Source: Sediminibacterium sp. Gen4 (GTDB lineage: Bacteria; Bacteroidota; Bacteroidia; Chitinophagales; Chitinophagaceae). From it: a stretch of 64,000 nt of DNA. The stretch covers positions 1-64,000 of the forward strand of contig JACBFI010000009.1 of NCBI GenBank assembly GCA_013391385.1. The letters run 5' to 3'. Each line of letters opens with the position of its first letter. Position 1 is the first letter of the stretch. The notes under the pieces are model-generated. The model searched no databases. It was not told the DNA's origin and saw only the letters and a list, made by a program, of their open reading frames with translations. Below, piece by piece: positions 12,868 to 60,663 of this stretch. A program made the translations under genes and the position numbers.

Positions 12868-12897
12868 AGTTGACAGATGATAGTTGACAGATGATAG
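12868..12897. repeat. Heptad array, left arm of four-helix-bundle element 1
   Basis: Four tandem 7-base units alternate between AGTTGAC and AGATGAT. The reverse complement matches the array at 13446-13480 unit for unit with few changes. The two form inverted arms around the four-helix-bundle gene. The array begins one base after the start codon of the aminotransferase gene on the minus strand. Confidence 0.85.
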
Positions 12898-12940
12898 AAA
12901 AAAGTCGCTGGTAATGATTAAGACAAAATAAAGATAGTAA

Positions 12941-13308
12941 CTATTTAAGCAGACCTTGCTCGAAATAGGTAATAAACCCATTGAGTATTTTTAAACACTC
13001 ATGCAATAAAAGAATAATTTTCTGAACTTCTTCTTTGGGTATAATTTCTATCAGCAACGCTATCTTCAGTAAAGTTTCAAGTTCATACATTGAACCTCTA
13101 GCCACATGAAAGAATTGTATACTATCCTTTTTATAATTACGACCACAACCTTCTGCAATATTAGCCGGAATAGATACAACTGCTCGACGTGATTGAGCTG
13201 TAAGGGCATATAATTCCTCTCGAGGATATAGTTTTGTAAAAAACTGTATACTTCGCCTACCAACTCCATCGATTTTTTCCAAACTATTAAATTTTCATAG
13301 TAAGTCAT
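12941..13308 (-). pseudogene. Frameshifted S23/four-helix-bundle protein gene
   Basis: The gene is split over two frames. From 13308 one frame reads MTYYENLIVWKKSMELVGEVYSF, the normal start of S23-type four-helix-bundle proteins. The rest (YPREELYALTAQSRRAVVSIPANIAEG, then GRNYKKDSIQFF and ARGSMYELETLL) is in another frame down to 12941. The frames meet at a run of six A on the plus strand (13238-13243, TTTTTT in the coding sense); a seventh T would restore one 120-residue protein. So it is either a recent frameshift, a phase-variable switch or a sequencing error. The family was first known from intervening sequences in 23S rRNA genes; its biochemical role is unclear. A promoter-like pair lies just upstream and inverted heptad arrays lie on both sides. 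Confidence 0.85.
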
Positions 13309-13332
13309 ATATTATATTTTACTCCAATTTTG

Positions 13333-13363
13333 CAAAATATAATACCGATAATATATTTCCAAA
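13333..13363 (-). promoter_or_regulatory. Candidate promoter of four-helix-bundle gene 1
   Basis: On the minus strand a TTTG (13360-13363) is followed after 18 bases by TATATTTTG (13333-13341). This is close to the Bacteroidota pattern of TTTG, 17-21 bases, TAnnTTTG, with one extra T. It lies 25 bases before the ATG at 13308 and inside the pair of heptad arms, so the element would carry its own promoter. Confidence 0.5.
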
Positions 13364-13445
13364 CGCCTAAATACAAAGCGGTTCGCTTCAGTTATATTCT
13401 CTTGATTTAAAGTATACGATCTAACTATTTTGATTGTAACTTTAA

Positions 13446-13480
13446 ATTATCTGTCAACTATTATCTATCAACTGTCAACT
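13446..13480. repeat. Heptad array, right arm of four-helix-bundle element 1
   Basis: Five tandem 7-base units: ATTATCT, GTCAACT, ATTATCT, ATCAACT, GTCAACT. They are the inverted counterpart of the array at 12868-12897, with one unit more. The array ends seven bases before the start codon of the carbonic anhydrase-like gene, so it would lie in that gene's leader. Confidence 0.85.
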
Positions 13481-13487
13481 AAAAAAA

Positions 13488-14009
13488 ATGCCACTAATCC
13501 TCCCCGTCCTTGGTAAACATCCTCAATTTGGTGAAAATTGTTTTATTGCGCCCAATGCCACCATTGTTGGTGATGTGATCATGGGCGATGATTGCAGTAT
13601 TTGGTTCAATGCGGTGGTAAGAGGTGATGTTCATTACATCCGTATGGGGAACAAAGTAAATATTCAGGATGGTGCAGTCATTCATTGCACGTATCAAAAA
13701 AATCCTACTGAAATCGGAAATAACGTATCCATTGGACATAATGCCTTGGTACATGGCTGTACGATTCATGATAATGTACTCATTGGTATGGGCGCCATTG
13801 TTATGGATCGTTGTGTTGTTCACAGCAATTCCATTATTGCCGCAGGTGCTGTTTTATTAGAAGGAACAATTGTAGAAGCAGGTTGTATTTATGCAGGTGT
13901 ACCCGCTAAAAAAGTAAAAGATGTTTCGAAAGAACTTATCAATGGAGAGATCAATCGTATTTCTAATAACTATGTGATGTATGCATCTTGGTTTCAGCAA
14001 GGGGAATAG
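13488..14009 (+). CDS. Gamma carbonic anhydrase-like hexapeptide-repeat protein
   Basis: A 173-residue left-handed beta-helix protein of the gamma carbonic anhydrase (YrdA/CaiE-like) family. Hexapeptide repeats run from about residue 12 to 145. The zinc-binding histidines of the family are present: one in DGAVIHCTYQ (near residue 64) and two in SIGHNALVHGC (near 84 and 89). WFNAVVRGDV is the usual conserved block. The family includes active zinc carbonic anhydrases and proteins of unknown activity, so catalysis is not assured. It starts just after a heptad array and is divergent from four-helix-bundle gene 1. Confidence 0.88.
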   Translation: MPLILPVLGKHPQFGENCFIAPNATIVGDVIMGDDCSIWFNAVVRGDVHYIRMGNKVNIQDGAVIHCTYQKNPTEIGNNVSIGHNALVHGCTIHDNVLIGMGAIVMDRCVVHSNSIIAAGAVLLEGTIVEAGCIYAGVPAKKVKDVSKELINGEINRISNNYVMYASWFQQGE

Positions 14010-14048
14010 AGTTGTTAGTTGACAGGAGGAAAAGTTAGTTAGCAGATA

Positions 14049-14127
14049 GCTTATGGTTCATGGCTTATAGGCAATAGCAATAGATGATTTCTCTACCATA
14101 TACCATGACCTATTAGCCATAAGCTAA
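14049..14127. repeat. Heptad palindrome between carbonic anhydrase-like gene and rsgA
   Basis: The left arm holds units GCTTATG, GTTCATG, GCTTATA and GGCAATA. The right arm (14095-14127), read in reverse complement, holds GCTTATG, GCTAATA, GGTCATG and GTATATG. Both arms begin with the same outer unit. The TAG stop codon of rsgA (14124-14126) lies inside the right arm. A few AGTT-type bases at 14011-14040 may be the remains of another array. Confidence 0.8.
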
Positions 14128-15047
14128 TATTCCTCCCCCATCGTATCCAATATCGTTCTATAACTGATATATCTTTCTTCAGAAATTTCTCCCTGCATCA
14201 CCGCTTTCTTTACCGCACAATTGGGTTCTTCAATATGCATGCAGTTATTGAATTGGCAGTCATTCATCTTTTTTCTCATTTCAGGAAAATAATGAGCCAG
14301 CTCTTCTTTCTCTATATCAACGAGACCAAATTCACGTACACCGGGGGTATCAATGATATGACCACCTCCCGGCAGGTCAAACATTTCTGCAAAAGTGGTG
14401 GTATGCATTCCTTTACCACTCCAACCACTTACTTCCTGTGTACGTAGATTGAATTCAGGGAACAAGGTATTCACACAGGTTGATTTACCCACTCCACTAT
14501 GTCCACTGAGCAAAGATGTTTTATGATGCAGTATATTTTTGAGCGCTTCCAATCCTTCTCGTTTTTCAACACTACACAATAGCACTTCATAACCAATCTT
14601 TGTATAGATATCCTTCAACTGTTCAAATTTTTCCATCTCTTTTTTGCGATAGAGATCCGATTTATTAAAAACGATGATAGCCGGAACATGATAGGCTTCA
14701 CAGGAGATTAAAAATCGGTCCATAAAACCCTGAGAGGTTTTTGGATCTTTCAAGGTTACAAATAATAGACTCTGATCCAGATTGGATGCAATGATATGGT
14801 GTAGGTGTTTATTGTGTGGTGAGATACGGGCTACATAATTCTTACGGTCATGAATTGTATTAATGATGGCAGACTCTTCTTCTACCTCTTCAATCTCCAT
14901 TTCTACTTCATCCCCTACTGCAATAGGATTGGTAGAAGTAATACCCTCAATTTTCATCACACCTTTGATACGGGCATTGTACAAACGTCCGTCTTCCCCT
15001 TTAGCGATATACCAACTACCGGTTGATTTATAAATTCTGGCCCTCAT
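14124..15047 (-). CDS. rsgA: Ribosome small-subunit-dependent GTPase A
   Basis: A 307-residue circularly permuted GTPase that helps late 30S ribosome maturation. Domains in order are an N-terminal OB fold (about 1-70), then the permuted G domain with G4 NKSD (near residue 123), G1 GHSGVGKST (near 181) and G3 DTPGVREFG, and a C-terminal zinc finger with Cys and His in CQFNNCMHIEEPNC (near 266-279). The length is normal for Bacteroidota. The stop codon falls inside a heptad palindrome, so the last residues (GEEY) are set by the repeat boundary. The start is back-to-back with ubiE. Confidence 0.95.
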   Translation of the reverse strand: MRARIYKSTGSWYIAKGEDGRLYNARIKGVMKIEGITSTNPIAVGDEVEMEIEEVEEESAIINTIHDRKNYVARISPHNKHLHHIIASNLDQSLLFVTLKDPKTSQGFMDRFLISCEAYHVPAIIVFNKSDLYRKKEMEKFEQLKDIYTKIGYEVLLCSVEKREGLEALKNILHHKTSLLSGHSGVGKSTCVNTLFPEFNLRTQEVSGWSGKGMHTTTFAEMFDLPGGGHIIDTPGVREFGLVDIEKEELAHYFPEMRKKMNDCQFNNCMHIEEPNCAVKKAVMQGEISEERYISYRTILDTMGEEY

Positions 15048-15181
15048 TCAAACGAAGATAATAAGCCTTCTCCGCTTTCCAACCATTGATAAAAACAGTC
15101 TAAAATCAATATTTGCGAAACATTAACCCCTGTTTTAAGGGCTATCACGTAACAATGACTGACCTTCAGGGTGGAAATCAA

Positions 15182-15189
15182 TATCTTTG
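15182..15189 (+). promoter_or_regulatory. Candidate -7 promoter box for ubiE
   Basis: TATCTTTG is a full TAnnTTTG match and ends 7 bases before the preferred ubiE ATG at 15197. If used, the transcript would have almost no leader. No -33 TTTG is obvious. Confidence 0.35.
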
Positions 15190-15196
15190 TTGCCTT

Positions 15197-16632: not shown

Positions 16633-16682
16633 GGTTTACTGCTCATGATGTAATAAATTGCAGCATTGCTAACGCTTTGCTT

Positions 16683-18023
16683 ATGAAAGATTATATCATT
16701 AAAAATACCGCCATTGTAAACGAAGGACGGATTACACATGGCGATGTTTGGATCAGAAATTCAAGAATTGAAAAAATTGGCGGCTCACTAAACCCTGCTG
16801 TGAATGCAGTGGAAATCGATGGTAGTCAGCAGTATCTCTTACCGGGTGTTATTGACGATCAGGTTCATTTCCGCGAACCCGGACTTACCCATAAAGCCAC
16901 GATTTATACCGAGGCAAAAGCAGCTGTGGCAGGCGGTGTTACCAGTTTTATGGAAATGCCGAATACGAGTCCACCGGCCTTTACCCAGGAATTATTGGAG
17001 CAGAAATATGAAACAGGAAGAAATACTTCACTGGCCAATTACTCATTCTTCATGGGCACTTCCAACGATAACCTGGATGAGGTATTGCGAACTAATGAAA
17101 AGAAAAATGAGATCTGTGGTATCAAAATATTCATGGGCTCTTCTACCGGGAATTTGTTGGTAGATAATCCATTGATTCTGGAAAAAGTATTTGAAGGCTC
17201 TGAAGTATTGATTGCTACCCATTGTGAGGAAGAAAGTATCATTAAAGAAAACCTAGCTACACTAAAAGCTAAAAAAGGAATCCTCGAGCCATCTGATCAT
17301 CCGATCATTCGAAATGAAGATGCTTGTTTTGAATCCTCTTTCAGAGCCATTCAATACGCAAAAAAGTACAATACGCGCTTACATATCCTGCATATTACTA
17401 CTGCCAAAGAATTGCAGCTTTTTGGCAATATGCTCCCCTTAAAAGACAAACGTATTACTTCGGAAGTGTGCGTACATCATCTCCATTTTACCAGTGATGA
17501 TTATGCACGTTTGGGTAATCAGATCAAGTGTAACCCTGCTATCAAAGCACCTCATAATAAACAAGCATTATGGGAAGCTTTGCTAGATGATCGTTTGGAT
17601 GTCATCGCAACAGATCATGCCCCTCATACCTGGGCAGAGAAACAAGAAGATTATGAACATGCCCATGCCGGATTACCATTGATCCAACATTCGCTAGGAC
17701 TCATGTTACATTATGTGAAAGAGGGGAAAATCAGTATCGAGAAAGTGGCAGAGAAAATGAGTCATGCTGTTGCACAGTGTTTCCAGATCAAGGAAAGAGG
17801 ATTTATTCGTGAAGGATATTTTGCAGATCTGGTACTGGTAGATATGCATCAATCAAATACTATTCAAAAAGACAATATTCTTTATAAATGTGGCTGGAGT
17901 CCACTCGAAGGCATGACACTCCCCGCAACCATCAACTACACTTTTGTCAATGGACATCCTGTTTATGGAAAAGGAGTGTTTGATGAGTCTAAGAGGGGAA
18001 TGAGGTTGAGCTTTGAGAGATAG
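16683..18023 (+). CDS. Dihydroorotase (class I, Bacteroidota type)
   Basis: A 446-residue amidohydrolase that cyclises carbamoyl-aspartate to dihydroorotate in pyrimidine synthesis. ATG 16683 was chosen over the upstream TTG 16677. Metal-site stretches are IDDQVHFREPGLTHK (residues 58-70), HILHITTAKEL, VCVHHLHF and the catalytic IATDHAPHTWAEK. In the first motif the usual His-x-His is Gln60-Val-His62, so one classical metal ligand is replaced; as far as I recall this is common in Bacteroidota homologues. Another cyclic amidase cannot be fully excluded, but the FREPG motif favours dihydroorotase. The gene is followed at once by a heptad palindrome. Confidence 0.87.
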   Translation: MKDYIIKNTAIVNEGRITHGDVWIRNSRIEKIGGSLNPAVNAVEIDGSQQYLLPGVIDDQVHFREPGLTHKATIYTEAKAAVAGGVTSFMEMPNTSPPAFTQELLEQKYETGRNTSLANYSFFMGTSNDNLDEVLRTNEKKNEICGIKIFMGSSTGNLLVDNPLILEKVFEGSEVLIATHCEEESIIKENLATLKAKKGILEPSDHPIIRNEDACFESSFRAIQYAKKYNTRLHILHITTAKELQLFGNMLPLKDKRITSEVCVHHLHFTSDDYARLGNQIKCNPAIKAPHNKQALWEALLDDRLDVIATDHAPHTWAEKQEDYEHAHAGLPLIQHSLGLMLHYVKEGKISIEKVAEKMSHAVAQCFQIKERGFIREGYFADLVLVDMHQSNTIQKDNILYKCGWSPLEGMTLPATINYTFVNGHPVYGKGVFDESKRGMRLSFER

Positions 18024-18024
18024 T

Positions 18025-18107
18025 ATGTTAGCTTATGGTTCATAGCATATAGTTAATAGAATGACTATATGCTATGAACTATAAGCCATTCGCTCAAATT
18101 CTAACAT
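18025..18107. repeat. Heptad palindrome after dihydroorotase
   Basis: Left-arm units from 18031 are GCTTATG, GTTCATA, GCATATA and GTTAATA. The right arm (18064-18087), in reverse complement, gives GCTTATA, GTTCATA and GCATATA. The central stem of 17 bp (GTTCATAGCATATAGT region) is nearly perfect with a 10-base loop. An outer 7-bp pair, ATGTTAG (18025-18031) and CTAACAT (18101-18107), closes the structure. It begins one base after the stop codon. Confidence 0.88.
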
Positions 18108-18121
18108 AATAACCACTAACC

Positions 18122-19435
18122 ATGCAAATAGACAAAACCACACTAGCTGATCTCTCCATTTTTCATAGTGAGGAAGAATTATCGGTTGTTCATTTTTTAG
18201 ATCATACCCAAACAGGTGGTGGTAGAGACTATTTGTATGATATCGTGTCAAAGCCTTTAGCTACTGTTGATGCCATTCTCAGTAATCAACAGATCATTAA
18301 GGATCTGATGCAGGTGAGCGATCAATGGCCGGCCTCCATCACCAATGGAACCATTATGGTGATCGCCCGATTTTATGAATCGCAGATCAATAAGTATCCT
18401 ACACAGCCAAATGTATTCAACAGTTTCACTTATAAACTTTTCAATGCACCTGATTTTTCTTTGACCCGTTATACCATCACACATTGTATTGATTTTATTA
18501 AAGGAATGATGCAGGTCAGCGCTTTGCTAAAAGAGAGTAGCACTAGTACACAATTGAAAATATGGGCAGAAAGAATTGATATGTTGTTGAATAAGGGATT
18601 GATACCTGAGATCGGAACACAATCAAAAGAAGATCTGGTCAACTGGCGCATCCTCAGTTATGCAGATTTCATTCGTTTTCATTATAAGAATCAGATTTTT
18701 GAATTAATTGATATCTATAGCAGAATCGATGCATTTCTATCTTTAAGTATCGCTTGTAAAAAATATCATTTTTCATTCCCGGAAGTAAGTCAGTCTACAC
18801 AACCTTTTATTGAAGCAACAGGATTGTATCATCCATTGTTACAAACCCCTACTTCTTACAATGTAGATATGAGTCGCGACAAGAATTTCCTTTTCTTAAC
18901 GGGTGCAAATATGGCCGGGAAAAGTACTTTTATTAAAGCAGTAGGTGTAAGTGTATATCTGGCACATTTAGGAATGGCAGTACCTGCGACCAAGATGCAG
19001 TTGAGTTTGTTTGATGGATTACTGAGTAATATTAATGTGGTAGATAATATCATTAAAGGTGAAAGTTATTTCTTCAATGAAGTACAACGTATCCGTAATA
19101 CGATTGAAAAAATTAGTGATGGCAGAAACTGGCTCATTCTTATTGATGAACTTTTCAAGGGAACCAATGTACAAGATGCTATGAAATGTAGTACCACGGT
19201 GATCGAGGGTTTGCGTAAAATGAAGAACGTACTATTTATCTTATCTACGCACTTATATGAAATAGGAGAACCACTACAACAATACAGCAATATTCAATTC
19301 CGCTATTTCGAAACCAGTGTACAAGATGAACAACTGGTCTTCAGCTATCAACTAAAAGAAGGCATCAGCAATGACAGATTGGGGTATTTGATTTTGAAAA
19401 GAGAGGGAGTGGTGGAGTTGTTGGAGAAATTATAA
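18122..19435 (+). CDS. MutS-like ATPase without the mismatch-recognition domain
   Basis: A 437-residue protein with a MutS lever/core-like helical region (about 20-230) and a C-terminal MutS ATPase domain. That domain has Walker A TGANMAGKST (near 258), the FNEVQRIRNTIE helix, Walker B LILIDELFKGT (near 340) and the STHLYE switch. It lacks the N-terminal mismatch-binding and connector domains of MutS1, and has no Smr nuclease domain as in MutS2. It belongs to the poorly studied short MutS-family ATPases common in Bacteroidota; a role in mismatch repair should not be assumed. It is followed after 8 bases by the left arm of four-helix-bundle element 2. Confidence 0.85.
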   Translation: MQIDKTTLADLSIFHSEEELSVVHFLDHTQTGGGRDYLYDIVSKPLATVDAILSNQQIIKDLMQVSDQWPASITNGTIMVIARFYESQINKYPTQPNVFNSFTYKLFNAPDFSLTRYTITHCIDFIKGMMQVSALLKESSTSTQLKIWAERIDMLLNKGLIPEIGTQSKEDLVNWRILSYADFIRFHYKNQIFELIDIYSRIDAFLSLSIACKKYHFSFPEVSQSTQPFIEATGLYHPLLQTPTSYNVDMSRDKNFLFLTGANMAGKSTFIKAVGVSVYLAHLGMAVPATKMQLSLFDGLLSNINVVDNIIKGESYFFNEVQRIRNTIEKISDGRNWLILIDELFKGTNVQDAMKCSTTVIEGLRKMKNVLFILSTHLYEIGEPLQQYSNIQFRYFETSVQDEQLVFSYQLKEGISNDRLGYLILKREGVVELLEKL

Positions 19436-19443
19436 GGGAATTT

Positions 19444-19471
19444 CTGATGTAGGATGTCTGATGTCGGATGT
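19444..19471. repeat. Heptad array, left arm of four-helix-bundle element 2
   Basis: Four tandem 7-base units: CTGATGT, AGGATGT, CTGATGT, CGGATGT. The reverse complement of the last two is found at 19898-19911 at the far end of the four-helix-bundle gene. The match extends outward through TTTCTGATG and GGAA. The array begins 8 bases after the stop codon of the MutS-like gene. Confidence 0.85.
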
Positions 19472-19486
19472 GTATTATTCGCTTCA

Positions 19487-19516
19487 TTTCGTACGTATTG
19501 CTCTGATGTAGCTTTG
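19487..19516 (+). promoter_or_regulatory. Candidate promoter of four-helix-bundle gene 2
   Basis: TAGCTTTG (19509-19516) fully matches TAnnTTTG and lies 14 bases before the ATG at 19531. A TTTCG at 19487-19491, 17 bases further upstream, could act as a poor -33 box. The promoter lies between the heptad arms, as in element 1. Confidence 0.45.
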
Positions 19517-19530
19517 TTTAAACAGGTTTT

Positions 19531-19917
19531 ATGGACAGAGTTACTCTTCAAAAAAGAACTAAGAACTTTCATTTATCAATCATTGAATTATGTAAGCATT
19601 TACCTTACAATAGTATTGGATTTGAAGTCGGTAAGCAATTGATAAGATCAGCCGGGTCAGTTGGAGCTAACTATAGGGCAAGCGTAAGGGCCAAGTCACA
19701 AGCTGATTTTATATATAAAATTGAGATAGTTCTTGAAGAAGCCGATGAGTCATTGTATTGGCTGGAAATTATTCAAGAGAGTAACTTATCAAGCTTTCCA
19801 AAAATCACTCAACTCATTCAAGAGGCAAAAGAGCTGACTGCGATTTTCGCAGCTACAGATAAAACATTAAAAGCCAAGAATAAAAACAACAAATTAGACA
19901 TCCGACATCAGAAATAA
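19531..19917 (+). CDS. S23/four-helix-bundle protein, intact
   Basis: A 128-residue all-helical protein of the S23/four-helix-bundle family. The core matches the family pattern: a first helix (LQKRTKNFHLSIIELC), IGFEVGKQLIRSAGSVGANYRAS with the conserved Ser-x-GAN turn, KSQADFIYKIEIVLEEADESLYWLEII, and a long last helix with a Lys/Asn-rich tail. Relatives include the proteins encoded in 23S rRNA intervening sequences and the Avd accessory protein of diversity-generating retroelements; no reverse transcriptase is nearby. The final residues (DIRHQK) and the stop are read out of the right-hand heptad array, so the repeat sets the C-terminus. Confidence 0.9.
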   Translation: MDRVTLQKRTKNFHLSIIELCKHLPYNSIGFEVGKQLIRSAGSVGANYRASVRAKSQADFIYKIEIVLEEADESLYWLEIIQESNLSSFPKITQLIQEAKELTAIFAATDKTLKAKNKNNKLDIRHQK

Positions 19918-19965
19918 TTCCATCAAATCTGAGATTTGCCATCTGACATCTGCCATCAAATCAGG
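19898..19965. repeat. Heptad array, right arm of four-helix-bundle element 2
   Basis: Two units, ACATCCG and ACATCAG (19898-19911), are the exact inverse of the inner end of the left arm and lie within the coding sequence. After the stop codon comes a small palindrome, CAAATCT-g-AGATTTG (19924-19938). Four further heptads follow: GCCATCT, GACATCT, GCCATCA and AATCAGG (19938-19965). Confidence 0.8.
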
Positions 19966-20036
19966 TGTTTCTACGTGTATTATTACCTGTTTTACTCATC
20001 TTGGATTTTGCTTCTGTATTTTTCCTTTCTTTTGTT

Positions 20037-20051: not shown

Positions 20052-20077
20052 GAGATTTTTTACTTTTTACTTTTTTT

Positions 20078-23279: not shown

Positions 23280-23371
23280 GCTATGAGCCATGAGCTGCGA
23301 GCTGCGAGCAAATCGCATGATATTTGCACCCTAATAAAAAGCTCATGGCTCATAGCTCGAAGCTCGTAGCT
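23280..23371. repeat. Heptad palindrome between divergent genes
   Basis: The left arm has units GCTATGA, GCCATGA, GCTGCGA and GCTGCGA (23280-23307). The right arm (23341-23371), in reverse complement, has GCTACGA, GCTTCGA, GCTATGA and GCCATGA. The shared GCTATGA-GCCATGA pair is offset by two units between arms, as expected if whole heptads were gained or lost. This is the only heptad locus lying between two divergent promoters without a gene inside it. Confidence 0.85.
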
Positions 23372-25977: not shown

Positions 25978-28392
25978 ATGCGTACACTGCTTTGGGTTTG
26001 TTGTTGTTTGTTGTTTTTACAAACACAATCACAAACTACTTCTTCCAAAATCGCCGAGAAAACAAAAAATATGAAGCGGTATGATGGTTATTTCACTTAT
26101 TGGTGGGATGCCAATACCGGTAAGATATGGTTACAGGTAGATAAACTGAATCAGGAATTTTTGTATGTCAATTCTTTGCCCGCCGGATTGGGATCCAATG
26201 ATATTGGTCTGGATCGCGGACAATTGGGTGGTACCCGAATTGTTTTCTTTCATAAGATCGGGAAAAAATTATTGATGATTCAGCCCAACTATCGTTACAG
26301 GGCCAACTCATCAGACGAAAAAGAGAGAAAAGCAGTACAGGAATCATTTGCGCAATCTGCCATTGCCGGATTTACGATTGATGAAGATGAAGGTGATAAA
26401 GTATTGGTAGATGCCACTTCTTTTTTTCTTAGGGATGCACATGGTATTGCCGATCGTATACGTGGTATGCGTCAGGGTTCCTATACATTCAATGAAGCCC
26501 GTTCTGCCATCTATCTTCCCAACACCCGAAATTTCCCGTTGAATAGCGAATTTGAAGCCATCATCACTTTTACCGGAGGTAATGATGCTGGTAGATATGT
26601 GAATGCAGTAACTCCTTCTGCCGAAGCCATTACTGTACGTATGCACCATTCTTTTGTGCAATTACCGGACAATCATTACAAACCCCGCAAATACGATATC
26701 CGTAGCGGGTATTTTGGGATCAACTATTTCGATTTCAGTAGTCCATTCACTGAGCCGATTGAACAAATGTTTATTGCCCGTCACCGACTGGAAAAGAAAG
26801 ATCCTAGTGCTGCCATCAGTGATCCGGTGGAGCCAATTGTTTATTATTTAGACAATGGTACCCCCGAGCCTATTCGCTCGGCATTATTGGAAGGTGGTCG
26901 TTGGTGGAATCAGGCTTTCGAAGCTGCAGGATATCGAAATGCATTCATAGTAAAAGTTCTACCCGATGATGCAGACCCGATGGATATCCGTTATAACATG
27001 ATCAATTGGGTGCATCGTTCTACCAGAGGATGGAGTTATGGTGCCTCTGTAACCGATCCGCGTACCGGAGAAATCATCAAAGGACAAGTTACACTCGGCT
27101 CTTTACGTGTACGTCAGGATCATTTGATTTTTACGGGTCTTTTGTCTCCGTATGAAACAGGCAAACCCGTTCCGGCCACCATGCGTGAAGCCGCTTTACA
27201 ACGCTTACGCCAATTATCTGCGCATGAAATTGGACATACACTTGGATTACAACATAATTATGCATCCAGCTACAATGATCGTGGCTCTGTAATGGATTAT
27301 CCGCATCCCAATATTTTCGTGAACAGCAAAGGCGAGATCGATTTTTCGAAAGTGTATACCAATGAAATTGGTGAGTGGGATAAGAGAGCCATTATATATG
27401 GCTACCAGGATTTCCCTGACGGAACCAATGAAGAAAAAGCCTTAAAGAATTTACTGGATGAGAATACTAAAAAGGGATTATTATTTATTGCGGATGCTGA
27501 TGCCAGAGCAGCAGGGGGTCTACATCCCTATGCACATTTATGGGACAATGGAAAAGATGTGACTGATGAATTGAAAAATGTTTTACAAGTTCGACAAAAA
27601 GCATTGGATCAGTTTTCAGAAAAAGTCATTCAGGAAACTATGCCGATGTCTAGAATGGAAGATGTTTTAGTACCGGTATACAATTATCATCGTTATCAGA
27701 TTGAAGCAGTAGTAAAACTGATTGGGGGTATGAATTACAGTTATAGTGTTCGTGGCGATGCACAGCAACAACCACAAATACTCGACAATGCCATTCAGCA
27801 AAAAGCACTGAAGGCGGCATTGGATTGTTTATCTCCTGACGTACTCACACTACCAGATCGTATCAGTCTGATGATTCCTCCTCGTCCACCTATGTATTAT
27901 GGTGTGGGAGAAACTTTTGCCAAAAGAACAGGAATGAGTTTTGATCCCATGGCAGCTGCAGAAGCGTTGGCACATTTTGAATTAGGATTTTTATTCAATG
28001 CAGAAAGAGCCAATCGATTGGAACAATTCAAAGCACAAAAAGGAACCATGGGCTGGGGCGAAGTCTTGGACGCCATCATCCAAAAAACATGGATGGCACC
28101 TAAACAAGAAGGCTTAAAAGGCCAGGTTCAGGCGCAAACGCAGCAAATTGTTTTGACATGGTTACTTGCTTTAAGCAAGCATAATAACGCCAATTATATG
28201 GTCAAATCGATTTGCTTCGATAGATTAAATAATCTGAAAGCATATGCCAAAAGACAAGCCGATTTGAATCCTATCGCCTGGAGACCACATTATTTATATG
28301 CTATTGAAAGAATCGAAAAACCCAAAGACATTGAACTCCCTCAACATGCAGAAATTGCTCCGGGAGCGCCGATTGGATGTGATGAGTGGTGA
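25978..28392 (+). CDS. Large exported zinc-dependent metalloprotease (DUF5117/DUF4953 type)
   Basis: An 804-residue protein with a signal peptide (hydrophobic residues 3-14). The zinc site is explicit: HEIGHTLGLQHN (HExxHxxGxxH, near residue 417), followed by SVMDYPHPN as a met-turn-like stretch. The N-terminal region (YDGYFTYWWDANTGKIWLQV...FLYVNSLPAGLGSNDIGLDRGQLGGTRIV in part) is typical of the DUF5118/DUF5117 proteins found in Bacteroidota and relatives. The substrate is unknown. The last codons (Asp-Glu-Trp-stop) lie inside a heptad array, so the C-terminus adjoins repeat DNA. The gene stands alone, with a strong hairpin terminator downstream. Confidence 0.9.
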   Translation: MRTLLWVCCCLLFLQTQSQTTSSKIAEKTKNMKRYDGYFTYWWDANTGKIWLQVDKLNQEFLYVNSLPAGLGSNDIGLDRGQLGGTRIVFFHKIGKKLLMIQPNYRYRANSSDEKERKAVQESFAQSAIAGFTIDEDEGDKVLVDATSFFLRDAHGIADRIRGMRQGSYTFNEARSAIYLPNTRNFPLNSEFEAIITFTGGNDAGRYVNAVTPSAEAITVRMHHSFVQLPDNHYKPRKYDIRSGYFGINYFDFSSPFTEPIEQMFIARHRLEKKDPSAAISDPVEPIVYYLDNGTPEPIRSALLEGGRWWNQAFEAAGYRNAFIVKVLPDDADPMDIRYNMINWVHRSTRGWSYGASVTDPRTGEIIKGQVTLGSLRVRQDHLIFTGLLSPYETGKPVPATMREAALQRLRQLSAHEIGHTLGLQHNYASSYNDRGSVMDYPHPNIFVNSKGEIDFSKVYTNEIGEWDKRAIIYGYQDFPDGTNEEKALKNLLDENTKKGLLFIADADARAAGGLHPYAHLWDNGKDVTDELKNVLQVRQKALDQFSEKVIQETMPMSRMEDVLVPVYNYHRYQIEAVVKLIGGMNYSYSVRGDAQQQPQILDNAIQQKALKAALDCLSPDVLTLPDRISLMIPPRPPMYYGVGETFAKRTGMSFDPMAAAEALAHFELGFLFNAERANRLEQFKAQKGTMGWGEVLDAIIQKTWMAPKQEGLKGQVQAQTQQIVLTWLLALSKHNNANYMVKSICFDRLNNLKAYAKRQADLNPIAWRPHYLYAIERIEKPKDIELPQHAEIAPGAPIGCDEW

Positions 28393-28429
28393 GTTTGTGA
28401 TGAGTGAGTAGTCAATAGTGAGTAGTGAG
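28381..28429. repeat. Heptad array at the end of the metalloprotease gene
   Basis: Seven units in register: GATGAGT, GGTGAGT, TTGTGAT, GAGTGAG, TAGTCAA, TAGTGAG, TAGTGAG. The first two contain the last codons and stop of the metalloprotease gene. There is no clear inverted partner; a strong terminator hairpin follows directly. Confidence 0.65.
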
Positions 28430-28432
28430 TAT

Positions 28433-29148: not shown

Positions 29149-30780
29149 TTATACAAGCATTCTCAGTGGCTCTTCTAACAAGGATTTCAATGTTTGCAGG
29201 AATGCAGCACCTGTAGCACCATCTACAGAACGGTGATCACAGCTCAATGTCACTTTCATGATATTGCCAGGAACCACTTGTCCGTTTTTAACGACAGGAA
29301 CTTGTGAAATGCCTCCTACTGCCAGGATGCAAGAATCTGGCGGATTGATAATGGCAGTGAATTGATCAATTCCATACATACCCAAATTGGAAATTGTGAA
29401 TGTACTTCCTTCCCAATCTGCAGGTTGTAATTTTTTATCTTTTGCTTTTTGTGCGTATTCTTTTACTTCAGCACCGATCTGACTCAATGATTTGGTATCT
29501 GCGAAGCGAACAACCGGTACCAATAAACCATCTTCTACTGCTACAGCTACTCCAATATTGATATGATGGTTGTAACGAATGCTATCACCCAACCAACTAC
29601 TATTGACTTTTGGATGTTGTTTCAATGCCATTGCAGTTGCTTTCAATACCATATCATTGAAACTGATCTTCACAGGAGCCACTTCATTGATTTTGGCGCG
29701 TGCTGCAACGGCAGCATCCATATCAATACTCATGGTCAGGTAAAAATGCGGGGCTGTAAACAAACTCTCACTCAAACGACGCGCAATGGTTTTGCGCATC
29801 TGAGAAACCGGAACGTCTTCAAAGCTAACCTGTCCGGCAGGTGCTGCTGCAATCGGTGTAGCAGACTTGGCTGCTTGAGGAGCAGGAGCAGCAGCCGTAG
29901 GAACGTATGCATCAACATCATTCTTGGTAATTCTACCATTGTCGCCCGTACCTTTTACATAACGGAGGTCAATACCTTTTTCACCGGCTATTTTTTTAGC
30001 CAATGGCGATGCTAATATTCGTCCTTCATTTACTACAGTTTCACTTTGAACCTGAGGGGCTGCTACTGGTGCAGATGCCGGAGCTGTAGCAGCAGGAGCT
30101 GGTGCTGCAGCAGCGGGAGCTGAACCTCCGCTAGCTTTTACTGCTTGTACAATGGCATTTACATCTAACCCTTCTTTACCAATGATACAAAGCAAATCAT
30201 TTACAAGGATTTTTTCACCCGGCTGTGCACCTTGGTACAGCAATACACCATCTTTATAACTTTCCAGTTCCATGGTAGCTTTATCGGTTTCGATATCAGC
30301 CAACACTTCTCCTTTCTTTACCGTATCTCCTACTTTTTTATGCCATCCCGCAATAACGCCTTCGGTCATGGTATCACTTAAACGAGGCATTAATACCACT
30401 TCTTCCATACTTGATACATCCATAGCTGGGGCAGATGAAGTAGCAACCGGTGCCTGAGCTGTTTCTGGCGCTGGTGCTGATACTGCAGCAGGGGCCGCAT
30501 TTCCACCGGCATGTTGTGCCAATAATGCTGAGATATCTTCTCCTGCTTTACCAAAAATAGCCAACAGGTCATTCACCTGAAGTTTCCCGCCTTTAGGGGT
30601 TCCAATATGTAAAAGAATGCCATCCTGATAGCTTTCCAGCTCCATGGTGGCTTTATCGGTTTCTATTTCTGCGAGAAGGTCTCCTTTCTTTACTGCATCA
30701 CCCACATTTTTATGCCATGCGGCAATAACACCTTCGGTCATGGTATCACTCAGGCGGGGCATTAAAATCACTTCGGCCAT
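29149..30780 (-). CDS. Pyruvate dehydrogenase complex, dihydrolipoamide acetyltransferase (E2)
   Basis: A 543-residue E2 core subunit that transfers the acetyl group from lipoamide to CoA. There are two lipoyl domains (about 1-80 and 128-205), each with the lipoylated Lys in ETDKATMELES. Ala/Pro-rich linkers follow, then a peripheral-subunit-binding domain (RILASPLAKKIAGEKGIDLRYVKGTGDNGRI, in part, near 250), and the catalytic domain with the active-site His/Asp in LSCDHRSVDGATGA near residue 515. The catalytic stretch and two-lipoyl layout fit pyruvate rather than 2-oxoglutarate E2. E1 and E3 genes are not adjacent. It is bounded by terminators on both sides, so it is likely monocistronic. 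Confidence 0.93.
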   Translation of the reverse strand: MAEVILMPRLSDTMTEGVIAAWHKNVGDAVKKGDLLAEIETDKATMELESYQDGILLHIGTPKGGKLQVNDLLAIFGKAGEDISALLAQHAGGNAAPAAVSAPAPETAQAPVATSSAPAMDVSSMEEVVLMPRLSDTMTEGVIAGWHKKVGDTVKKGEVLADIETDKATMELESYKDGVLLYQGAQPGEKILVNDLLCIIGKEGLDVNAIVQAVKASGGSAPAAAAPAPAATAPASAPVAAPQVQSETVVNEGRILASPLAKKIAGEKGIDLRYVKGTGDNGRITKNDVDAYVPTAAAPAPQAAKSATPIAAAPAGQVSFEDVPVSQMRKTIARRLSESLFTAPHFYLTMSIDMDAAVAARAKINEVAPVKISFNDMVLKATAMALKQHPKVNSSWLGDSIRYNHHINIGVAVAVEDGLLVPVVRFADTKSLSQIGAEVKEYAQKAKDKKLQPADWEGSTFTISNLGMYGIDQFTAIINPPDSCILAVGGISQVPVVKNGQVVPGNIMKVTLSCDHRSVDGATGAAFLQTLKSLLEEPLRMLV

Positions 30781-30819: not shown

Positions 30820-30872
30820 GGAAAAAAGCGGCATGCTTGTAGCTTGTAGCTCTGAGCTTGCCGCTTTTTTCC
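30820..30872 (-). terminator. Terminator hairpin with heptads in its loop
   Basis: A 13-bp stem (GGAAAAAAGCGGC and its complement) carries six T on each exit side, so it could terminate in both directions. It follows the isocitrate dehydrogenase stop. The 27-base interior consists of heptads GCTTGTA, GCTTGTA, GCTCTGA and GCTTGCC. It is thus both a normal terminator and a member of the heptad family. Confidence 0.82.
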
Positions 30873-32351: not shown

Positions 32352-32416
32352 AATTCCTTTTTTTAAAGTGCTGCGAAGGTAAGGGTTGGGAGGTATTTTT
32401 TTGTGTTAAAAAACTA

Positions 32417-32495
32417 GCATATGGCTGATAGTTCATAGCTTATGGCCAGCAATAATCAATTTTTTCTATTTGCCATGAACCATAAGCCATCAGCC
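32417..32495. repeat. Heptad palindrome upstream of apaG
   Basis: Left-arm units are GCATATG, GCTGATA, GTTCATA and GCTTATG (32417-32444). The right arm (32472-32495), in reverse complement, reads GCTGATG, GCTTATG and GTTCATG. It lies between the divergent icd and apaG genes, about 50 bases before the preferred apaG start. Confidence 0.85.
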
Positions 32496-32546
32496 AATAA
32501 ACTAACCACTATTTTCCCTACTTTTACCTCAAGCAAACTCTCCCAC

Positions 32547-39536: not shown

Positions 39537-39543
39537 GAAAATA

Positions 39544-39609
39544 GTTGATAGTTGACAGTTGACAGTGATGGTTTCTTCCTGTCAACTGTCAACTATCAAC
39601 TATCAACTT
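39544..39609. repeat. Perfect heptad hairpin between convergent genes
   Basis: The left arm has AGTTGAT, AGTTGAC, AGTTGAC and two more bases. The right arm (39580-39609) has GTCAACT twice and ATCAACT twice. The stem is 23 bp with no mismatch and a 13-base loop. The right arm has one more heptad than the left and ends at the stop codon of the thiolase gene. The words are the same as in the arms of four-helix-bundle element 1. Confidence 0.92.
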
Positions 39610-50353: not shown

Positions 50354-50359
50354 TGGATG

Positions 50360-50423
50360 GCTTATGGTTCATGGCTAATAGCATTTTCCTTCTATTAGCT
50401 ACTTGCTATGAACTATTCGCTAT
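50360..50423. repeat. Heptad palindrome before lpxD
   Basis: Left-arm units are GCTTATG, GTTCATG and GCTAATA (50360-50380). The right arm (50392-50423), in reverse complement, gives GCGAATA, GTTCATA, GCAAGTA and GCTAATA. The order is the same, but the right arm has one additional heptad (GCAAGTA) between two shared ones. It starts 6 bases after the HD hydrolase stop. Confidence 0.88.
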
Positions 50424-50444
50424 TTACAACCTAAACTCCACCAT

Positions 50445-53861: not shown

Positions 53862-53903
53862 TTCATAACACTTATTCTTCCATTCATTAATTCATAAGGA
53901 TAC

Positions 53904-54521: not shown

Positions 54522-54527
54522 GATGGA

Positions 54528-55649: not shown

Positions 55650-55654
55650 TTTAA

Positions 55655-57079: not shown

Positions 57080-57088
57080 ATCATATCA

Positions 57089-60000
57089 TCAGGTTAACCA
57101 AACTCTCATGAGTGATAATAATTTTTGCATGTCAACAGGCTTGGTAATATAATCCGAAGCACCGGCGGTGATACATTTTTCTCTATCGCCCGCCATGGCT
57201 TTTGCAGTAAGCGCAATGATGGGTAGTTCCATCATTTTCAAATCTTTTCGGATTCGTTGCATCGCTTCATATCCATCCATTTCAGGCATCATGATATCCA
57301 TCAGTACAATATGCGTATCTGGGAATTTTTTCAATTGCTCCAACGCTTCTCTGCCATCACTGGCCGTTAAAACCTTCATTTTATTCGATTCCAGCACGGC
57401 GCTCAAGGCAAATACATTGCGCATGTCATCATCCACTACCAATACTGTTTTATTCAGTAGACTCTGATCATTCAATACCGAAACATTCATTCCCGATTCG
57501 GTTTTCTTATCAGACTTTTGCATTTTGTGTAGGAATAATTCCAACTCATCCAATAATCGAGTGCTTGCATTGACCGCACTTCGGATAATGATTCCGGAAA
57601 TTTTCCGATACTCCATCTCATCAGCCTGATTGATATCATCGTCCAGATGAATGATAATAGGCGTTTTTTGATCTACCACAAACTGACTGATCTGTTTAGC
57701 TTCTTGTAGTTGAATGGAACCTCCAATATGAATAATGACACAGTCATAATTGAGTTCACTGATACTTTTTTTGGCAGTATCAATATCCAATACCTGTTCA
57801 AAATGTAGTTTGTAGTCTTTCTCACTCGCCAGCTGATGTAGATCCTGTTCTTCAAAATGAACGGCAGATACAATCAATATCTGTTTCAAACTTTTCCGAA
57901 TATGCTCTCCTAACATTTGGAAAGCTTTTTCAAGAGAGTTGGCATCAATGGGTTTTTTCAAATAAGCCATGATATCTTCCTGCTTGAATCGATTATCATC
58001 AATAGCTGAGATGATATGTACAGGTGTATGTTTAATAGATTCATCAGCCCTGATCTGTTTCAGGATCGTCCACCCATCCATTACCGGCAATTGAATATCC
58101 AGTATGATGGCATTCGGCTTGTATCTTCTGGCATAATACAATCCTTCATCACCTTCCAATGCAATTACTACTTTATATCCTTTATGTCGTGCATAATCAC
58201 GGATAATCGTAGCAAAATTGACATCATCTTCAATGATCAGCATCAGTTTTTCACCAGCTGTAAGCTGATGCCTGTCGTCCGGCACCTTATTCTGCTCCCG
58301 AATATTTTCAAAAGGTAAAATACTGATCGAGTCATGATCATCTGCAAGTGCTTCCAATGCTGTAAATTCCTGTTGTGGTTGTACGACAGGTACATATTGA
58401 TAAGGAATATAAATGGTGAATTCACTTCCTTTATTGACTTCACTTTTTACTTCGATAGAGCCGCCCAATAAACGAATCAATTCCCTACTAATAGAAAGTC
58501 CAAGACCTGTACCTCCATATTTTCTACTCGTTGAACCATCTGCCTGTTGAAATGCTTCAAAAATAAGTTTCTGTTTATCAGGTGCAATGCCAATACCTGT
58601 GTCGATAACGCGAATGGCCATTTCTGCTGTTCTACCTGGAACTGAACGGAAATCAACGGTGATCTTACCACCACCGGGTGTAAATTTGAATGCGTTAGAA
58701 AGTAGGTTTTTGATCACCTGAAATAATCGTTGTTTATCCGTATGAATCTCAGCAGGAATATCTTGTTGTTGTTCAATTTGTAAATGGATATTTTTCTCTG
58801 AAGCAACCACCGAAAATAATTGTTGAATATCTGTGACTAATGACTGAATAGGTACGTCCTCAATCACCAGATCAATTTTTCCGGATTCGATTTTAGACAG
58901 ATCCAATATATCATTGATCAATTGCAATAAATCGTTTCCTGATTTATAAATGATATTGGCATATTCAATCTGTTTTGTATTCAGATTTTGGGTATTGTTA
59001 TCTGCCAGCAGTTTTGCAAGTATCAGCACACTATTCAATGGTGTGCGTAGTTCATGCGACATATTGGCCAGGAATTCAGACTTATAGCGACTCGTCATCT
59101 CCAGCTCTTTGGCTTTTAGTGTGAGTGCTTGTCGGGCATTTTCGATGGCTTCATTTCTTTCTTTTAGTTCTACGTTGATCTGCTTTAATTCTTCTTCCTG
59201 TGTTTTCAATTCTTCTTCTGAAGCTTGTAACTCTTCTGCTTGTCTACTGAGTTCATCATTGGTTTGACGCAGTTCTTCTTGTTGTTCCAGCAAAGCTTCT
59301 TTCTGCTCCTGTAATTCATCTAATAGCTGATTAATCCTATCCCTCGACTGATAAGAATTAATAGCTGCAGAAAGAATATCAGAAATGCTTTTCAGTAAAG
59401 AGATCTGCAAATCTGTGAATTGGGTAAAACAACCCAGTTCTATCAATCCTTTTAGTTCTTCATTCATCCACAAAGGCACACAAGCAATTTCTCCGTTACC
59501 ACTTACTTGTCCGAGAGAAGAATCCACTTTCCAATAATCGGGTGGAATATTTTTTATGATGGTAACGGTTTTAGATAAAGCAGCATTACCTACAACTCCT
59601 TCTCCTATAACAAATGATTTTTTTGAAGATGAACTTAGTGCTACTGAAGCAACCGTTACCAACTGCTCCGTTTTGGGGTCAACAAAATAAATTACGCCTG
59701 CAGGCACTTCCAGGTATTGTACCATGGCAGTAATGATACGATTTGCCAACTCTCCGGAACTGTCTACTACCTGTAAGCGGTTATTGATATAACTCATGCC
59801 CTCCAACACCCAGTTCTTTTCCTGGGCGAGAATACTCGCTTTCTCGGTTTGTTCAAGTGTGGCCTGTAATTTTAATCCCGCTTTATATCGACTTTTCAAT
59901 GTTTGAATCACAGCATTGATCAATAGTAACACTACGATCATTAATACGCTGATTCCGATATATAAAATCAATTTGGTTCTTTCATTGTATGAGAGTACTA

Positions 60001-60514
60001 CAGCTTCTCTTTTTGCCAATAAGCCCTCTTCTTCAATTTTTACTTTTTCGATTTGTTGGTAGATTTTATTCAATCTTCCTTCTTCTTCCAGAATGATTTT
60101 TTTAAACGATTCAGCAGACATATTAGGATAAATCACACCCTCTGTTCTCCAATATCGCAATAGATCTGTAGTGAGTGAGTCCAAGCTCATTACATTGGCA
60201 ACTTGAGATGCATTGTCTTTTACAAAGTCTCTAAGATCCATGATCCGATTGGGAATAAAAGTGATCCCCTTTTCATAAGCATCCATATCCTTGGGATCAT
60301 CTGTTACCCAATAAGCCCTTCTTCCACCTCTGATCTGCATAATGGAAAACCGAATATCTCTTACATAAGAAATCGCCTGATGGGTATGACGAACGCGATC
60401 TGCTTCTTTGGCTTGCTTTTCGAGAGAATCGATGGTTATAAAACCTACTAGAAATACGAGCAAAACTGCAATACCTAAACCGGAATACAGTCTGAGGGGC
60501 AGGGAACGAATCAT
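57089..60514 (-). CDS. Large membrane hybrid histidine kinase with GAF and three receiver-like domains
   Basis: About 1141 residues, the start set at 60514 (MIRSLPLRLYSG) just before the first transmembrane helix. In order: TM1, a periplasmic CHASE3-like helical sensor (about 30-170), TM2 (about 180-200), a GAF domain (about 240-390), a long coiled coil rich in Glu/Gln, HisKA with SHELRTPLNSV (near 485), and HATPase with NLLSNAFKFTPGG and GGTGLGLSIS. Receivers follow: the first with Asp in ILDIQLPVMDG (near 806), a middle domain lacking the phospho-acceptor (VIIHIGG in its place, near 926), and a third with VLMDIMMPEMDG (near 1073). It leads the four-gene signalling operon. Confidence 0.93.
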   Translation of the reverse strand: MIRSLPLRLYSGLGIAVLLVFLVGFITIDSLEKQAKEADRVRHTHQAISYVRDIRFSIMQIRGGRRAYWVTDDPKDMDAYEKGITFIPNRIMDLRDFVKDNASQVANVMSLDSLTTDLLRYWRTEGVIYPNMSAESFKKIILEEEGRLNKIYQQIEKVKIEEEGLLAKREAVVLSYNERTKLILYIGISVLMIVVLLLINAVIQTLKSRYKAGLKLQATLEQTEKASILAQEKNWVLEGMSYINNRLQVVDSSGELANRIITAMVQYLEVPAGVIYFVDPKTEQLVTVASVALSSSSKKSFVIGEGVVGNAALSKTVTIIKNIPPDYWKVDSSLGQVSGNGEIACVPLWMNEELKGLIELGCFTQFTDLQISLLKSISDILSAAINSYQSRDRINQLLDELQEQKEALLEQQEELRQTNDELSRQAEELQASEEELKTQEEELKQINVELKERNEAIENARQALTLKAKELEMTSRYKSEFLANMSHELRTPLNSVLILAKLLADNNTQNLNTKQIEYANIIYKSGNDLLQLINDILDLSKIESGKIDLVIEDVPIQSLVTDIQQLFSVVASEKNIHLQIEQQQDIPAEIHTDKQRLFQVIKNLLSNAFKFTPGGGKITVDFRSVPGRTAEMAIRVIDTGIGIAPDKQKLIFEAFQQADGSTSRKYGGTGLGLSISRELIRLLGGSIEVKSEVNKGSEFTIYIPYQYVPVVQPQQEFTALEALADDHDSISILPFENIREQNKVPDDRHQLTAGEKLMLIIEDDVNFATIIRDYARHKGYKVVIALEGDEGLYYARRYKPNAIILDIQLPVMDGWTILKQIRADESIKHTPVHIISAIDDNRFKQEDIMAYLKKPIDANSLEKAFQMLGEHIRKSLKQILIVSAVHFEEQDLHQLASEKDYKLHFEQVLDIDTAKKSISELNYDCVIIHIGGSIQLQEAKQISQFVVDQKTPIIIHLDDDINQADEMEYRKISGIIIRSAVNASTRLLDELELFLHKMQKSDKKTESGMNVSVLNDQSLLNKTVLVVDDDMRNVFALSAVLESNKMKVLTASDGREALEQLKKFPDTHIVLMDIMMPEMDGYEAMQRIRKDLKMMELPIIALTAKAMAGDREKCITAGASDYITKPVDMQKLLSLMRVWLT

Positions 60515-60607
60515 TTGATATCGGCTTTTTAAATGACTTGTAAGATAGGTAAATAAATGATAATCAATGCCCCACAATAAGATAAGAAACCAGAGATTCG
60601 TTTGATG

Positions 60608-60663
60608 GGTTATGGCTTATGATCGTTGGACCATGGACTATTGACTATTGTCTATGGTCTATT
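60608..60663. repeat. Heptad array upstream of the hybrid kinase operon
   Basis: Units are GGTTATG and GCTTATG, then after one non-matching unit GACCATG, GACTATT twice, GTCTATG and GTCTATT. The part from 60629 to 60659 is an imperfect palindrome. It lies between the hybrid kinase start and the SusD terminator. Confidence 0.7.

Follow-up and report, generated by a model that had tools for sequence, protein, structure and literature searches.

Heptamer arrays and S23 genes in the window

We analysed a stretch of 64,000 nucleotides from Sediminibacterium sp. Gen4 (Bacteroidota, Chitinophagaceae; assembly GCA_013391385.1, contig JACBFI010000009.1, positions 1 to 64,000), hereafter the window, in which tandem arrays of degenerate 7-base units, most of them forming palindromes, are dispersed among the genes. 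Two of these structures enclose a gene of the S23/IVP four-helix-bundle family, and the arrays are probably the ends of such S23 elements, for the most part surviving as gene-less remnants or non-autonomous copies. A sequence-only reading had previously reported tandem heptamers, mostly as inverted arms, at 13 places. The heptamers are present at all of them and mostly form inverted arms, but 12868 and 13446 belong to a single element, as do 19444 and 19898, and the S23 genes inside these two arrays, which point to the nature of the arrays, had been missed. By eye, hairpin terminators accompany three further places: 28381 is a single arm by a terminator, 30835 lies in a terminator loop and 60608 adjoins a terminator. 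The features of the window are as follows.

12868..12897: outer arm of S23 element 1, GTTGACA/GATGATA words, detected by TRF; pairs with 13446..13481 (inverted score 20.5)
12941..13282, minus strand: S23/IVP four-helix-bundle gene of element 1 (TIGR02436 E 7e-28, PF05635 E 1e-26)
13446..13481: second arm of element 1, pairs with 12868..12897
14035..14125: gene-less palindrome, GCTTATG/GTTCATG; the weakest site (inverted p=0.02, period p=0.115)
18020..18125: gene-less palindrome, GCTTATG/GTTCATA; in the relatives G048 and G065 this position holds different words
19440..19471: outer arm of S23 element 2, GATGTCT words
19531..19917, plus strand: S23/IVP gene of element 2 (TIGR02436 E 6e-24, PF05635 E 1.8e-15); the gene's 3' end runs into the beginning of the right arm
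19893..19957: right arm(s) of element 2, pairing with 19440..19471 (inverted score 18)
20057..20075: small extra array of TTTTTAC ahead of the next gene, found by TRF and in the catalogue, additional to the places reported before
23280..23371: palindrome without a gene, built from GCTGCGA/GCTCATA
28383..28431: single arm of GTGAGTA/GTCAATA units, flanked by a stop codon on one side and a hairpin terminator on the other
30835..30860: short GCTTGTA array within the loop closed by a terminator-like stem of 14 bp
32410..32530: palindrome of GCTGATA/GTTCATA units, without a gene
39541..39608: gene-less palindrome, GTTGACA/GTTGATA, taking up the whole interval that separates two convergent stop codons
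47208..47362: longest gene-less palindrome of the window, GCTGCAA/GCTACAA words
50355..50440: gene-less palindrome, GCTTATG/GTTCATG words
60608..60663: array of GACTATT/GTCTATG adjoining a hairpin terminator

Period 7 in the genome

The genome (G000 in our set) was sampled over 448 kb of its 3.52 Mb, namely the window and 20 fetched stretches. Segments with a score of at least 14 number 49 for period 7, 21 for period 14, 10 for period 21 and five for period 28, as against 0-3 for each of the other periods from 3 to 30, and three Markov-3 shuffles of the same DNA yielded none at the periods tested (6, 7, 8 and 14). Period 7 and its multiples are the sole strong periods between 3 and 30 in this genome; the signal stands far above that of shuffled sequence and the dispersed palindromic arrays are real, as the earlier reading held. 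Within the window, the period-7/14 score is significant (p<=0.01 against 200 Markov-1 resamples each) in 13 of the 14 segments, 14049 being the exception, and a local inverted repeat is found (p<=0.05, same resampling) in nine; as it was the reader who chose the segments, these p-values are too favourable, and the unbiased test is the 448-kb scan. The five segments without a local inverted repeat are 28381 and the two pairs, 12868 with 13446 and 19444 with 19898, that each bracket one gene.

A catalogue of six joined contig stretches contains 66 arrays, of which 58 are intergenic with a gene on both sides, two lie at contig ends and six fall inside predicted open reading frames (ORFs); at least one of the latter (window 30071-30122) is plain coding low complexity. 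The catalogue is stricter than the earlier list, five places of which (14049, 18025, 30835, 32417 and 50360) were missed at its threshold, and it extrapolates to ~500 arrays per genome. The words are many and grade into one another, including GTGAAAA, GTCAATA, GATGTCT, GTTGACA, GCTTATG, GCTGCAA, GTACTAG and more.

S23 genes between heptamer arms

The genome has five PF05635 matches, every one of them flanked by inverted arms that differ in word from match to match and reach inverted scores of 15-31. The same arrangement recurs in other genomes, for which loci were picked by protein alone, as the best-scoring matches rather than random draws. The genus/phylum set comprises 63 loci (five own, 28 same-genus and 30 same-phylum), 61 with both flanks used. 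Within 220 bp, a period-7 score of at least 9 is reached in 24 upstream and 27 downstream flanks, compared to 1/59 and 2/60 for control windows at a distance of 900 bp, and an inverted score of at least 14 at 28/61 loci, compared to 3/599 mixed pairs, with direct repeats at 4/61. For a second set of 79 GTDB loci, named as in their own records (77 with both flanks), the corresponding figures are 29/77 and 44/77 flanks with period 7 versus 26/553 control windows, and 47/77 loci with an inverted score of at least 13 versus 17/762; the inverted arms include those of Verrucomicrobia, a cyanobacterium, Geobacter, Patescibacteria, Planctomycetota, Thiohalocapsa and Desulfosarcina. In the phylum of a Mesorhizobium metagenome-assembled genome (MAG), PF05635 is found in 62/398 genomes. 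Period 7 occurs on at least one side of 24 of the 29 loci taken from it (L385 retained despite a short flank), and inverted arms at 21/29 (versus 32/562); of 10 further loci lower in the list, nine show period 7 on a side and only four an inverted score of at least 13. Cyanobacterial plasmids, with loci from 12 of the 21 matching plasmid records, show a period-7 score of at least 10 on at least one side in 11/11 cases and an inverted score of at least 15 in 7/11. The association of S23 genes with arms thus spans several phyla, and the supposition that the arrays are peculiar to Bacteroidota found no support: cyanobacteria, the Mesorhizobium-MAG phylum and MAGs of several other phyla share the anatomy.

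One element resides in a ribosomal gene. On a plasmid of Azospirillum lipoferum (L367), an S23 gene (2501-2812) lies inside the 23S rRNA gene (1274-4472), and the insert carries GAGGACG/GATGACA arms on both sides (inverted score 21). An Rfam search of 52 other S23 loci (13 outside Bacteroidota, 29 and 10) gave no rRNA match, the sole match being a small signal recognition particle RNA in L392.

Further loci illustrate the range of settings. Cyanobacterial S23 genes have AGGGAAC, TAGGGAG and AGGTGAC arms. On plasmids of Anabaena sp. 90 (L357) and Pseudanabaena galeata (L359), an S23 gene with heptamer arms sits between cas6 and cas4, at the same position in type I-D CRISPR-Cas genes and with different words, and on a Nostoc edaphicum plasmid (L356) an S23 element with TAGGGAG arms separates the annotated ribonucleotide reductase beta and alpha genes. 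A divergent, arm-less S23 relative, one per genome, is present in G011, G017, G052, G021, G056 and G074 (L068-L073) and is possibly a domesticated, vertically inherited form. Recent S23 copying was considered for Calothrix sp. PCC 7103, where 10 of 12 stretches were compared and five copies proved at least 99.5% identical over ~2.6 kb, with one more shortened, but was rejected, S23 being the passenger of a larger element (L304-L310, L313) with 94-bp inverted ends that contain the heptamers CTGCCCT/CTGCCTA. The upstream coding sequence of this element is unannotated and transposase-like by eye; as the copies are part of the larger element, they provide no evidence for S23-driven movement.

Heptamer words and S23 subfamilies

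Heptamer words tend to go with the S23 subfamily between genomes without common neighbouring genes. Locus pairs were drawn from different genomes with no homologous flanking ORF in the fetched DNA, and coding DNA was trimmed. An arm similarity of at least 14 is found in 0.7% of pairs (15/2241) below an S23 identity of 0.3, in 0.5-2.0% between 0.3 and 0.55, in 2.7% (11/406) at 0.55-0.6, in 11% (12/106) at 0.6-0.7 and in 9/12 above 0.7. The overall correlation is weak (r 0.078; Mantel 1/2000); at identities of at least 0.55 the share is 6.1%, which 0/2000 permutations reach (1.3%, maximum 4.4%), and the reversed-sequence control, run before coding trimming, gives at most 1% in every non-syntenic class. 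Alignment identified heptamer matches in eight of the nine top pairs (identity above 0.7), the remaining one being two Methanophagales MAGs, and in 10 of the 12 at 0.6-0.7. For instance, AGCTGTG-like arms occur in the genome analysed here, G075, a Chitinophagaceae MAG, two Bacteroidetes MAGs and Roseivirga; GATTTGA/GATATGA arms in Mucilaginibacter, Pedobacter, Daejeonella and Flavihumibacter; GGTCTTT arms in G058, G065 and a Saprospiraceae MAG; and AGGGAAC arms in Calothrix and an Oscillatoriaceae MAG.

Some arrays away from S23 genes match the resident arms as well. Among 162 array segments located away from the gene in S23 loci (overlapping period-7 and period-14 rows being counted separately), 51 match their own locus's arms at a score of at least 14, and for 71 the best 5% of loci include their own. 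Part of the solo arrays of our genome likewise match resident S23 arms: 22/62 other arrays, or 21/61 without one that overlaps an S23 flank, whereas random sets of five foreign S23 loci match a mean of 2.6 (maximum 21 in 2000 sets).

Presence, absence and turnover

For presence, same-phylum genomes were picked by S23 count alone and contig 1 of each was sampled over its first 20 kb, six of the contigs being shorter than 8 kb. No period-7 arrays with a score of at least 12, and two with a score of at least 10, were found in 366 kb of 20 S23-free genomes (20 listed of 32), whereas 332 kb of 20 genomes with at least eight S23 genes contain 15 and 20, respectively. Same-genus samples of G017, G052, G011, G049, G003 and G061 contain no arrays, and their PF05635 matches are either absent or only divergent and arm-less. 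The samples of G065, G048, G075, G046, G054, G042, G023, G050, G003 and G013 are contigs with S23/thiolase matches, and their array densities are biased. The reversed control pattern gives high counts in G013 (74/77), G025 (123/76), G026 (92/78) and G033 (32/45), which suggests other heptamer words there.

Both S23 elements of the window are absent from orthologous positions in relatives: element 1 from 11/11 relatives in which the gap 12866/13488 could be aligned (gaps of 59-211 bp) and element 2 from 4/4 at gap 19435/20078, where G010 has a gap of 78 bp that begins, following the stop, with AATCAGGTG, a sequence that recurs in our genome directly past the right arm. The gene-less palindrome in gap 18023/18122 provides the counterpart for a solo array. 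By eye, three genomes carry palindromes with three different words there (GCTTATG in G000, GTTTGTA/GTCTGTG in G048 and GTTAGGA/GTCTGGA in G065), no clear array is seen in the 80 bp of G062 or the 98 bp of G058, and eight other genomes have only 7-31 bp. In gap 28392/29149, similar words are shared by G000 and G062, the latter having them as a palindrome at the site of the single arm 28383..28431; in G010:C1 this gap is occupied by another repeat, GTCATCCTGAGCGAGCGAAG, which has an inverted partner. The two gaps taken together indicate that an array can persist and that a change of word can affect both arms jointly, although separate insertions at one place could also give the differing words of gap 18023/18122. 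The proposal of the sequence-only reading that one family keeps its unit length while its words drift, as opposed to a fixed-sequence repeat, is supported by the three words of that gap.

Array anatomy and placement

In many arrays the arms are near-perfect inverted copies of each other, irregular word order included (C3:42533-42610 and window 39541-39608), and 30 of the 60 own arrays tested have an inverted score of at least 14. The arms of S23 elements have a median length of 4.4 units. Read from the outside in, 112 S23 arms contain AG in the unit in 82 cases, only GG in 16 and neither in 14, as against 25, five and 82 for their reverse complements, and G exceeds C in 92/112; the unit is G/purine-rich, and the leading G noted earlier is a genuine property. 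A process acting on unit length rather than sequence, as had also been suggested, is half right, since the words go with the S23 subfamily and the length is not strictly 7. Units of 8 nt occur in L082 (GGTAATTA-like) and L219 (GATTTTTC), the S23 arms of L267 have 9-nt units (AGTTGTTGA), and those of L054, one of the five own S23 loci, and L077 mix 7 and 8 nt. Stop codons in all frames were considered as a reason for the number 7 and rejected: 74/112 arm words contain a stop, compared to 64.5 expected from shuffled words but 73.0 when AG is kept, so that AG content accounts for the excess.

The 448 kb of own DNA contain 34 inverted arm pairs, 22 with loops shorter than 60 bp, seven with loops of 60-200 bp, three of 200-900 bp and two above 900 bp. 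Two of the three pairs in the 200-900 bp class enclose the S23 genes of the window; the third lies between two complete palindromes around a YjbR gene. Arrays are positioned beside stop codons: one lies within 12 bp of the stop on 42/66 gene 3' sides, where 21.2 are expected from random placement in the same gaps, as against 7/50 on 5' sides (11.3 expected), and 37/51 arrays with a 3' neighbour sit within 12 bp of its stop. Arm mismatches of the G-U and A-C types number 13 versus 17 in codirectional gaps, 8 versus 8 in convergent ones and 86 versus 111 at S23 loci; the lack of a G-U excess suggests that the arms are corrected at the DNA level, and selection on an RNA stem was rejected for the same reason. 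Thymines are slightly more frequent after the arms than before them (3.5 versus 2.5 per 10 nt in a test for the T-run of intrinsic terminators). Insertion into existing hairpin loops was also rejected, complementarity outside 31 own hairpins being 4.42 compared to 4.63 in mixed pairs; the array at 30835 and the 23S rRNA case nevertheless look like insertions of this kind.

Interpretation and rival explanations

The dispersed palindromes are best read as the solo and gene-bearing members of one S23 element family, a dispersed variant of the known rRNA intervening sequence (IVS). An S23 element would consist of an S23/IVP four-helix-bundle gene and the two inverted arms around it, both of them short tandem arrays of a single degenerate heptamer. 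S23 most likely binds the heptad array, as its subfamilies go with words of their own, and the unit presumably moves. Gene-bearing and gene-less forms would settle in tolerated places, in this genome often 3' of stops and in at least one case elsewhere in a 23S rRNA gene, the solo arrays presumably deriving from S23 elements and being kept or multiplied by S23 in trans. A host process acting on DNA, such as hairpin-templated synthesis or repair, may copy one arm from the other, so that S23 would hold the array while host enzymes copy or move the hairpin-prone unit; no nuclease or reverse transcriptase partner of S23 was identified. Both solved S23 relatives (2gsc and 2rld) have five chains, and one heptad per subunit of an S23 ring would, as a guess, explain the number 7. 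A wider proposal, to which we give somewhat less than even weight, is that S23 proteins read the heptads of mobile elements that form a widespread class. In place of a fixed sequence, these elements would end in tandem arrays with one heptad per subfamily and both arms rewritten in step. The 23S rRNA IVS, the cyanobacterial heptanucleotide, Xanthomonas GGGAATC and perhaps Beggiatoa TAACTGA repeats would then be branches of this class, and period 7 the footprint of one ring subunit.

A number of observations weigh against an S23 origin of the arrays. Only 6/20 S23-rich genomes (at most 20 kb sampled each) yielded arrays, with 8/15 in a single genome, and none were found in 11 kb of G046 (five S23 genes) or 13 kb of G023 (two). 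Conversely, G010 has no PF05635 match, yet some heptamer palindromes occur in it (pattern 22/27 versus control 8/5), with no arrays in the 80 kb sampled, and T-rich, period-7-like gaps were seen by eye in G013 and G061, also without a match. Roughly 40/61 own arrays match no resident S23 arm, 30/77 loci of the named set have no inverted repeat at the threshold, and the six divergent same-genus relatives lack arms. Few clusters carry the word coupling; six of the eight top arm pairs trace to five loci (L220, L223, L234, L235 and L248) that belong to related hosts, and are therefore not independent. The five own S23 proteins are divergent (16-33% to the first), with no recent gene copying evident, and two wider arm pairs, of 1.3 and 3.2 kb, enclose two and four ordinary genes; these look like chance pairs of like-worded arrays. 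Target-site duplication was not established at the one junction read (19435/20078), the relatives being too diverged, the genome has no RVT_1 match, and we know of no catalytic function of S23. In Coxiella, moreover, S23p is probably not made in vivo, according to a passage of PMC4990558.

The arrays might alternatively arise by ordinary slippage, with template switching in quasi-palindromes keeping the arms complementary and S23 genes occurring in loops by chance. A polymerase contact length of 7 nt has been hypothesized (Mrazek 2007, as cited in part of PMC4679880), and heptanucleotides are given there as the most abundant class of 5-11 nt repeats in most of the repeat-rich genomes studied. 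Irregular word order shared by both arms and the lack of a G-U over A-C mismatch excess fit such DNA-level correction. We nevertheless consider this origin unlikely, because slippage predicts neither S23 as the enclosed gene, nor the coupling of subfamily and word between unrelated loci, the matches to resident S23 arms, the absence of arrays from the 20 S23-free samples and the outside-in polarity of AG. Host selection could instead have shaped the palindromes as terminators or mRNA 3' stems that replace canonical ones, for which the stop-proximal placement speaks, as does the 3' end of a thiolase gene, where G000 and G075 have arrays and 10/17 printed relatives a GC hairpin with a T-run (by eye). 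Insertion tolerance would equally place arrays beside stops, however; RNA-type mismatches are not in excess, the rise in T past the arms is slight, three window arrays lie beside or inside an intact terminator-like hairpin and the S23 coupling is left unexplained, all of which makes host-selected 3' structures quite improbable. Least credible, and in our estimate very improbable, is REPIN-like or retroelement spread, in which S23 would help a driver that is either an HUH transposase or a reverse transcriptase. Like the arrays, REPINs (hairpin-forming repetitive extragenic palindromes) are short, dispersed and associated with a rare gene, and S23 is distantly related to Avd, a protein of diversity-generating retroelements (DGR; bAvd E 0.003; DivGenRetAVD E 1e-4 for one S23). 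Both drivers were rejected in this genome: its single Y1_Tnp gene has no adjoining arms, the nearest array being ~600 bp away, there is no RVT_1 match, and the words are not fixed.

If the dispersed palindromes are indeed S23 elements, the puzzles of the rRNA IVS and of dispersed heptamers would be tied to one small protein family, which thereby becomes a candidate partner of both. The relation of S23 subfamily to heptad word would amount to a testable binding code, for which word-protein pairs from many phyla form a natural series. The elements would also suggest a selfish entity whose ends change sequence yet keep their unit length, and to our knowledge no known transposon ends do so.

Comparison with known systems

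REPINs are many short dispersed palindromes tied to a rare gene, the RAYT transposase, with few gene-bearing units of the same motif, and in these respects resemble the arrays described here, which differ in having no fixed sequence and no HUH Y1 gene flanked by arms. The likeness to DGR lies in the distant homology of S23 to Avd, in the four-helix bundle and in the pentameric state; unlike DGR, our genome has no RVT_1 match. Miniature inverted-repeat transposable elements differ in that the copies described here share no fixed terminal inverted repeat and their words vary from copy to copy.

A close counterpart is the 23S rRNA IVS, in which an S23/IVP gene likewise lies between inverted arms, in Azospirillum inverted heptamer arms. 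The window elements at 12868-13481 and 19440-19957 have both the S23/IVP ORF and the complementary end arms of an IVS. They differ in being located between protein genes rather than inside a 23S rRNA gene, most of the family is gene-less, the solo arrays containing no S23/IVP ORF, the extrapolated copy number is high and the words vary by element. In the Coxiella IVS, as described in part of PMC4990558, tandem GACAGAT heptamers directly precede the S23p gene, and that paper calls it unclear what rRNA intervening sequences do and how they arose.

Dispersed heptanucleotide repeats, the short tandemly repeated repetitive (STRR) sequences and the like, share with our arrays tandem 7-nt units and a mostly intergenic location. 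Passages of PMC4692102 describe GGGGA(C/T)T in Nostoc and GGGAATC in Xanthomonas, the latter with an inverted pair shown and four units as the commonest number, and cite heptanucleotides in Calothrix; those of PMC4679880 describe TAACTGA in Beggiatoaceae, with other heptamers beside it in two Bacteroidetes. Neither an agreed maker or function of the Nostoc, Xanthomonas and Beggiatoaceae repeats nor a link to S23 emerges from these passages, although MacGregor raised the possibility of an unknown repeat-binding protein as the mobile part (PMC4679880). These repeats have been described mainly word by word in the portions drawn on, with, as we understand the descriptions, one or few words per genome, whereas the genome analysed here contains many. 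A literature search, with most subscription journals outside its reach, found no recognised link between S23 genes and dispersed heptamers. The species in which the Xanthomonas GGGAATC repeats occur also has the S23 protein XCC0516, and an S23 gene resembling XCC0516 (E 1e-36), located between ORFs read by eye as accB and accC, has GGGATTC arms, a lead that may tie the Xanthomonas repeats to S23.

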